A stretch of 64,000 bases of DNA from Bacteroidales bacterium. Its GTDB lineage: Bacteria > Bacteroidota > Bacteroidia > Bacteroidales > Muribaculaceae. The notes beneath the pieces are model-generated. The model searched no databases. It saw only the letters and a list, made by a program, of their open reading frames with translations, and was not told the origin of the DNA. The position numbers were made by a program, and so were the translations under genes. Each line of letters opens with the position of its first letter. Within the stretch, counting starts at the first letter, position 1. This document shows, in pieces, positions 32,982 through 34,553 of this stretch. Location: positions 84,277 to 148,276 of the forward strand of contig JAAVFL010000009.1 in the NCBI GenBank assembly GCA_014800795.1, in the 5' to 3' direction.

Positions 32982-33019
32982 GTAAAACTATGCTTACCTT
33001 TACGGAAAGGCATAAAAAA

Positions 33020-33047
33020 ACGAGAAATTGCCGTCACGGTAACCTCT
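33020..33047. other. Imperfect hairpin downstream of the NUDIX gene
   Basis: CGAGA and TCTCG arms enclose an inner CCGT/ACGG pairing, flanked on the left by seven A residues. The T-run would follow only on minus-strand transcripts, so its role as a terminator for the NUDIX gene is doubtful. The rest of 32982-33199 shows nothing convincing. Confidence 0.3.
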
Positions 33048-33199
33048 CGCTAAATAATAAACCAATCATTATCACATTTCTTGCAATGGAAAAAGTAATT
33101 TTGCTATTTACTATTAAAACACACGCTGTCGGAAATGGTTCACCGGAATGGTCTCTTTTTTGAAAAAAATCCGCGGTCCGGTAAAATTCACCATCGGAA

Positions 33200-33231
33200 G
33201 TTGCACATCTGACCGCCTTTGGCTATCTTTG
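33200..33231 (+). promoter_or_regulatory. Upstream recA promoter (P1)
   Basis: TTG at 33201-33203 and TATCTTTG at 33224-33231 are separated by 20 nt, matching the Bacteroidota consensus. The leader to recA would be about 98 nt. Confidence 0.65.
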
Positions 33232-33250: not shown

Positions 33251-33270
33251 CGGTTAAGCTATTTTAACCG
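33251..33270. promoter_or_regulatory. Palindrome CGGTTAA-N6-TTAACCG, candidate recA operator
   Basis: Two perfect 7-nt arms separated by 6 nt lie downstream of P1 and about 30 nt upstream of the second -7 box. The placement and dyad symmetry suit a repressor site for the recA gene, possibly a LexA-type SOS box; the sequence is unlike the E. coli box. Confidence 0.45.
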
Positions 33271-33301
33271 GATAAGGAAACTCTTTTGCCCACCATCATA
33301 T

Positions 33302-33309
33302 TAACTTTG
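33302..33309 (+). promoter_or_regulatory. Second -7 element TAACTTTG (P2) of recA
   Basis: TAACTTTG lies 26 nt before the recA ATG. The nearest TTTG (33285-33288) is spaced only 13 nt away, so the -33 match is poor. Confidence 0.5.
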
Positions 33310-33335: not shown

Positions 33336-34553
33336 ATGGAAAAAACTCCCAAAGGGAAGAAAACCCCGATCAAGAAGATCGACAAAAACATAGATCCCAA
33401 GGAAGCCAAAGCCAACGCACTGGCACAGGCTCTGGGCAACATCGAGAAAAACTTCGGCAAAGGCGCCATAATGAAACTCGGCGACGAAGCCACCGAAAAA
33501 GTCGATGTCATATCCAGCGGTTCGATCGGCCTGAACTACGCTCTGGGCGTAGGCGGCTATCCCAAAGGGCGCATCATCGAGATTTATGGTCCGGAATCGT
33601 CGGGTAAGACAACTCTCGCCATCCATGCAATAGCCGAGGCCCAGAAGAAAGGTGGCGTGGCAGCCATCATCGACGCCGAGCATGCGTTCGACCGATTCTA
33701 TGCCGAGAAACTCGGTGTGGATGTCAACAGCCTCCTGATCGCTCAGCCCGACAACGGCGAGCAGGCTCTCGAAATAGCCGAACAACTTATCCGCTCGGCA
33801 GCCATCGACATTCTGGTAGTCGATTCAGTGGCGGCTCTCACCCCCAAGAGCGAAATCGAAGGCGATATGGGCGACCGCAATGTCGGATTACAGGCGCGCC
33901 TCATGTCACAGGCAATGCGTAAACTTACCGGCACCATAGCCCGCACCAACACTGTATGTATATTCATCAACCAGCTGCGCGAGAAGATCGGTGTGATGTT
34001 CGGCCCGTCAGAAACCACCACCGGTGGCAACGCCCTGAAATTTTATGCCTCCGTACGCGTCGACATACGTCCCGGAACTCCCATCAAGGATGGCGACGAT
34101 GTATTCGGCAAGCGTGCCAAAGTAAAAGTTGTCAAAAACAAGGTGGCTCCCCCTTTCAAACGCTGCGAATTCGACATAATGTTCGGCGAAGGTATTTCCA
34201 AGTCGGGTGAGATAGTGGATCTCGGTGTGGAATACGGCATTATCAGCAAGAGCGGTTCTTGGTTCAGCTACAACGGTTCAAAACTCGCTCAGGGGCGCGA
34301 CGCTGCCAAGGCCGTGATACTCGACAACCCCGAGCTTGCCGACGAACTGGAGGAAAAGATTATGGCCGCCCTCAACGGCGAGTCACCCGATGGTGACGAA
34401 AAGGACAGTGCGGAGGAGAAAACCAAGGCTGCAAAAGCTCCGGCAAAAAAAGCATCGAAGGATAGCGAGAAAGAAACTCCCGAAATGGCTGAACTCGACT
34501 TCGATGCCGACTTCGACGACGATGATGATTTCACACTCGACGAAGACCTCTGA
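33336..34553 (+). CDS. recA: Recombinase A
   Basis: RecA forms filaments on single-stranded DNA and drives strand exchange and the SOS response. Walker A GPESSGKT is at 85-92, followed by IDAEHAFD, Walker [10 protein letters not shown], loop L1 ([16 protein letters not shown]), [11 protein letters not shown] and loop L2 ([16 protein letters not shown]). The 405-residue protein is longer than the typical 350. It has a Lys-rich N-terminal extension of about 25 residues and a C-terminal tail of about 60 residues that is first Lys/Ala-rich and then strongly acidic ([18 protein letters not shown]). Confidence 0.98.

Follow-up and report, generated by a model that had tools for sequence, protein, structure and literature searches.

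A rigid promoter element shared by recA and DNA repair genes in Muribaculaceae, with a WYL-domain protein as candidate regulator

Through which site, and by which regulator, would recA be controlled after DNA damage in a member of the Bacteroidales? In the Bacteroidetes, the published SOS regulators are S24 repressors acting on CTAA-N5-TTAG and GGA-N5-TCC operators, and these known regulators are reported to be absent from the Bacteroidales (PMC8565304), which raises the question of whether, and how, DNA repair and mutagenic polymerases are switched on in bacteria that dominate the gut. The question arises at the recA locus of a Muribaculaceae genome, contained in a stretch of 64,000 nucleotides analysed as a whole (the window), where a perfect dyad ahead of the gene had been proposed in a first-pass annotation as an SOS operator read by LexA.

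The recA leader and its perfect dyad

The recA gene (33336-34553, plus strand) encodes a protein of 405 aa recognised as RecA by TIGR02012 (E 2e-164). Its leader carries two candidate promoters on the same strand, of which P1 (33201-33231) is of the ordinary type, with a -33 TTG at 33201-33203, a 20-nt spacer and a -7 box TATCTTTG at 33224-33231, a TTG at a gap of 19-20 being the common form of -33 box in this DNA. P2 has a -7 box TAACTTTG at 33302-33309 and no -33 TTG box. The dyad CGGTTAAgctattTTAACCG (CGGTTAA-N6-TTAACCG) lies between the two at 33251-33270 on the plus strand, exactly as had been annotated, and is the sole match of its pattern within the window when up to two mismatches are allowed.

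Judged as an inverted repeat, the sequence does not clearly exceed chance expectation. Shuffling the 354-bp recA leader produced a perfect dyad with 7-bp arms and a spacer of 3-8 bp in 17% of cases, and genome-wide there is a single exact copy plus nine further places at two mismatches, compared with four for the reversed-pattern control; because of this frequency in shuffled leaders and of the single exact copy, the dyad is weak evidence when taken alone. Among 38 Muribaculaceae recA leaders, not one retains it at up to two mismatches, which is the very absence from close relatives that the annotation had named as speaking against its proposal, nor does it stand upstream of other SOS genes. 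Its resemblance to the Geobacter GGTT-N10-AACC box is superficial and receives no support from the relatives. Regarding LexA, searches of the window's genome, which is 99% complete, with the S24 profile PF00717 gave no match while control profiles did match, and a repeated search with a family sample and profile A1 again returned none in this genome. Since the genome lacks any S24-peptidase protein, a LexA box at recA is unlikely, and the LexA-type repressor that the annotation had in mind is not encoded.

The two arms are better re-read as two phased TTAA(G/C) repeats, 10 bp apart, that belong to a larger element; two direct TTAA copies resemble a dyad because TTAA is self-complementary. Despite perfect 7-bp arms and a position between two promoters, it is thus hardly conceivable that the dyad itself is a LexA/SOS operator of recA, given its loss from all 38 leaders, its single genome copy, its frequency in shuffled leaders, the lack of an S24 protein and the phased repeats that account for both arms. 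A hairpin in the RNA made from P1, serving as an attenuator or in ribosome-level control, is just as implausible and was dropped, as the stem does fold in the leader RNA but no better than shuffles (z -0.28), the dyad is unconserved and Rfam gave chance matches only. What stands of the original proposal is its broader part: a DNA-damage-type operator does seem to be present in the recA leader, as the neighbouring TTAAC-N6-GKGC-N9-GCMC element at 33264-33291. The dyad is not the operator and appears mostly coincidental, the role falling more credibly to this adjoining element.

An element of rigid geometry in Muribaculaceae

When recA leaders from genomes of the same genus, the same family and other families were compared, those of the Muribaculaceae aligned on a rigid common element, TTAAC-N6-GKGC-N9-GCMC-N10/11-TAnnTTTG, the full form of which is (TTAAN-N5)-TTAAC-N6-GKGC-N9-GCMC-N10/11-TAnnTTTG. 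In the window, its parts are all on the plus strand and consist of an upstream phased repeat TTAAG (33254-33258), one helical turn away from the conserved TTAAC box (33264-33268), which is also the right arm of the annotated dyad, and of an operator dyad in the GKGC-N9-GCMC register (33275-33291), placed by the alignment of the family's recA leaders and by the search of the genome itself. This operator dyad reads AGGA-N9-GCCC, with a degenerate left half and an intact right half; its centre falls in the -33 region of P2, and 10 bp separate it from the -7 box. Altogether, the element spans P2 (33254-33309) in place of its -33 box. The site is a weak one, with one mismatch in its left half and a PWM score of 31 against a median of 48. 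The leader would then combine a housekeeping promoter, P1, with a regulated one, P2.

In the logo of 128 sites, TTAAC stands 6 bp ahead of the operator dyad in 116 and is itself preceded, 10 bp upstream, by TTAAn. In the recA leaders, TTAA with at most one mismatch occupies the position of TTAAG in 20 of 38, compared with about three at most other positions. At up to one mismatch, the full pattern occurs at four sites in the window's genome, and 39 matches were found among relatives, in 18 of 25 family genomes; 16 other families and the reversed control gave no match. So that the spacing was not imposed, the gaps were freed in a further search of the family (1-16 and 1-26), in which 105 of 149 genomes matched, with two matches in all for the controls, and 148 of the 150 matches listed fell on the four lengths fitting N6/N16 and N10/N11, for an expected 15%. 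Among 127 gaps between operator dyad and -7 box, many of them from loci retrieved with fixed-gap patterns, 96 were N10, 28 were N11 and three were of other lengths.

An activator replacing the -33 contact is suggested because a -33 TTG at gap 19-20 is present in 3% of the dyad promoters against 34% of ordinary promoters, and because TTAAC is positioned in dyad promoters only. As it is unpositioned where the dyad is absent, TTAAC was ruled out as a UP element common to the promoters of this family. A site lying over the -33 region, at a fixed distance from the -7 box and with the -33 box missing, is the arrangement of DriD- and PafBC-type regulons.

Genes behind the element

A scan of 84,980 genomes with the exact pattern retrieved 93 stretches, and the records listed were nearly all from Muribaculaceae or from relatives filed under other Bacteroidales names. 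The genes located downstream are recA, bcp-recA, umuDC, a Y-family polymerase, RarA and a UvrD-like helicase, together with an rSAM/UDG repair pair (TIGR03916/TIGR03915), Vsr, C5-methylases and recurrent small proteins. Where recA follows bcp within one operon, the site is found at the front of that operon (L096, L160, L176, L182 and L208). Among 194 unique sites, 55 precede recA operons, some of which were fetched by recA homology, 42 precede a small protein of about 70-108 aa and six precede umuDC. The operator common to recA and to error-prone polymerase and repair genes is therefore the GKGC-N9-GCMC element and not the annotated dyad. Because it recurs before recA, umuDC, polymerase and repair genes, the element marks an SOS-like regulon, and both the element and this regulon are well supported. 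The same gene list suggests that damage regulation in Muribaculaceae extends to small proteins, one set of them with a tail like a β-clamp-binding motif, and to methylases, Vsr and certain CRISPR nucleases.

An autoregulated regulator was also sought among the downstream genes and this line was dropped, no core transcription factor being found there; the transcription-factor genes behind the element are an XRE gene accompanying a restriction system (L140) and a WYL-like gene truncated where its contig ends (L197).

After recA, the commonest gene of the regulon is the small protein of about 70-108 aa at 42 sites (e.g. L133, L156, L211 and L383), which has no assigned family and whose site in the window's genome is at C25:22545-22590 on the minus strand. 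Its structural model is of the β-β-α-β-β type (pLDDT 79) and found no significant match in the PDB. Ten of the 42 proteins end in QL[ST]LF, which resembles a β-clamp-binding motif, and from these sequences the protein may act on the replication clamp. Besides, the element is found 47 bp before a Cas12a-like gene with REC1 and REC2 domains (L209) and 108 bp before a cas3-like gene (L153), suggesting that CRISPR nucleases could be under damage control in some species. Another recurrent operon encodes membrane proteins of about 50 aa along with proteins of the MSFWNFLGG type (L117, L125, L131, L164 and L181); it carries a leader repeat GAAAGTCAT..GACTTTCC and is reminiscent, by analogy, of SOS-induced membrane toxins.

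Candidate regulators of the element

The regulator families surveyed were S24 and WYL. In the latter, a core HTH-WYL-WCX protein is encoded in the window's genome outside the window (C9:37016-37906, minus strand, 516 bits) and is present in 45 of 45 family genomes (340-533 bits), while none of 19 other families exceeds 330 bits. The protein is single-copy, WYL and WCX domains were found in it, and its N-terminal region, for which Pfam gave no HTH match at 0.001, would be the HTH. Its profile matches PafBC (6sj9) and DriD (8tp8). As expected of a DriD/PafBC-type system, an HTH-WYL-WCX regulator, its HTH being presumed, is thus encoded and conserved together with the regulon. In one genome (G024), the core WYL gene lies directly upstream of recA, and sister WYL genes that have a promoter to themselves carry a dyad whose centre falls at the same position (P 0.0005, a post hoc value since the comparison was chosen after some of the sequences had been seen). 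The tracking of the motif is imperfect, as the core WYL protein also occurs in genera that seldom show the strict pattern (g6 and g54). No copy of the element stands in front of core WYL genes, many of which lie close behind another gene, and consequently nothing indicates autoregulation. From comparative genomics, this protein is the best candidate regulator of the element. In a second WYL subfamily (about 340 aa; L428, L431 and L438), the promoter of the WYL gene itself bears an inverted repeat of the GTGCGCAA-N5-TTGCGCAC type, and the peak falls at a different offset, which speaks against the dyad comparison made with the sister WYL genes.

Closest among known systems is DriD from Caulobacter crescentus, a homodimeric, ssDNA-sensing WYL activator of a LexA-independent DNA-damage response, the pseudo-palindromic site of which overlaps a poor -35 box at a fixed distance from the -10 box (PMC12340889). 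Likewise, the element lies over a poor or missing -35/-33 box at a fixed distance from the -10/-7 box and the candidate is of the HTH-WYL-WCX type; the targets of DriD are also repair and growth-control genes (PMC12340889). Signal and activation would be as in DriD, and there are differences: the operator sequence is another one, TTAAC repeats are added upstream, and the regulon includes recA and umuDC. PafBC in mycobacteria is a WYL protein that activates recA through sigma adaptation, and shares with the present case the WYL/WCX architecture and the replacement, here proposed, of -35 recognition at the recA promoter. Whereas PafBC acts as a heterodimer and has a specific promoter motif at -26 (PMC11804915), the core site is here a symmetric dyad and the candidate is the product of one single-copy gene.

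P2 is probably the promoter of a Muribaculaceae-wide DNA-damage regulon governed by a DriD-like WYL activator. The operator precedes the -7 box TAnnTTTG by 10 or 11 bp, in the place expected for a -33 box, and the regulator would be an activator holding RNA polymerase on weak promoters, activation being the most likely mode in view of the rigid spacing and the lack of a -33 box. Damage-derived ssDNA would bind the WYL domain, around sigma region 4 the WYL dimer would bind the dyad, and the promoters carrying the element would become more active. Whether the family runs its whole SOS regulon, recA and umuDC included, in this way, i.e. by one DriD-like ssDNA-sensing WYL activator replacing the -33 contact and with no LexA-type repressor, is an evenly balanced matter. 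If true, a full activator-based SOS system would operate in a dominant gut family belonging to an order thought to have none; with a defined operator, a rigid geometry, a list of targets and one named candidate regulator, the question is directly testable.

Of the alternatives, the one that survives best is that another regulator, either from a different HTH family or unique to Muribaculaceae, binds the element as activator or repressor of the same SOS-like regulon. The survey was confined to two families, and element and regulon stand whatever the binder; the geometry and the distribution nonetheless suit a homodimeric WYL activator well, which makes this alternative unlikely, though of some weight. 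Distinctly less probable is a repressor site for a LexA-like XRE-S24 protein of about 230 aa, single-copy and cleaved after damage. Such a protein is present in most other genera of the family (loci L286 to L305), near recA in some genomes and adjoining it in G020; it combines HTH and S24 domains with invariant cleavage-site and catalytic residues (Ala-Gly, Ser, Lys), and related S24 proteins run SOS elsewhere in the Bacteroidetes (PMC8565304). Against it, the protein is missing from the window's genome and from almost the entire genus, despite a strong motif there, its own promoters lack the element, unlike those of self-regulated LexA, and the operators known for its class differ from the element. 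This XRE-S24 protein (class 2) was dropped as regulator for its wrong distribution and for the lack of the element in its promoters. The non-canonical LexA of the same phylum, a COG2932-type S24 protein, likewise targets recA, umuDC and UDG/rSAM genes (PMC8565304), but its two operators are not those shared by the present leaders and its S24 regulator has no counterpart in this genome. Compared with canonical LexA/RecA SOS, the target genes and the presence of a dyad at the recA promoter are alike, while LexA is absent and both operator and geometry differ.

Besides the promoters, the region upstream of recA contains a 28-bp sequence CCAATCATTATCACATTTCTTGCAATGG (33062-33089) that is perfectly conserved at this place in many Muribaculaceae genera. 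It forms the core of a longer conserved block (32993-33205, minus strand), which had no match in Rfam and ends, on that strand, in a hairpin with compensatory changes followed by a T run; by these features, the block looks like a small RNA gene divergent from recA.
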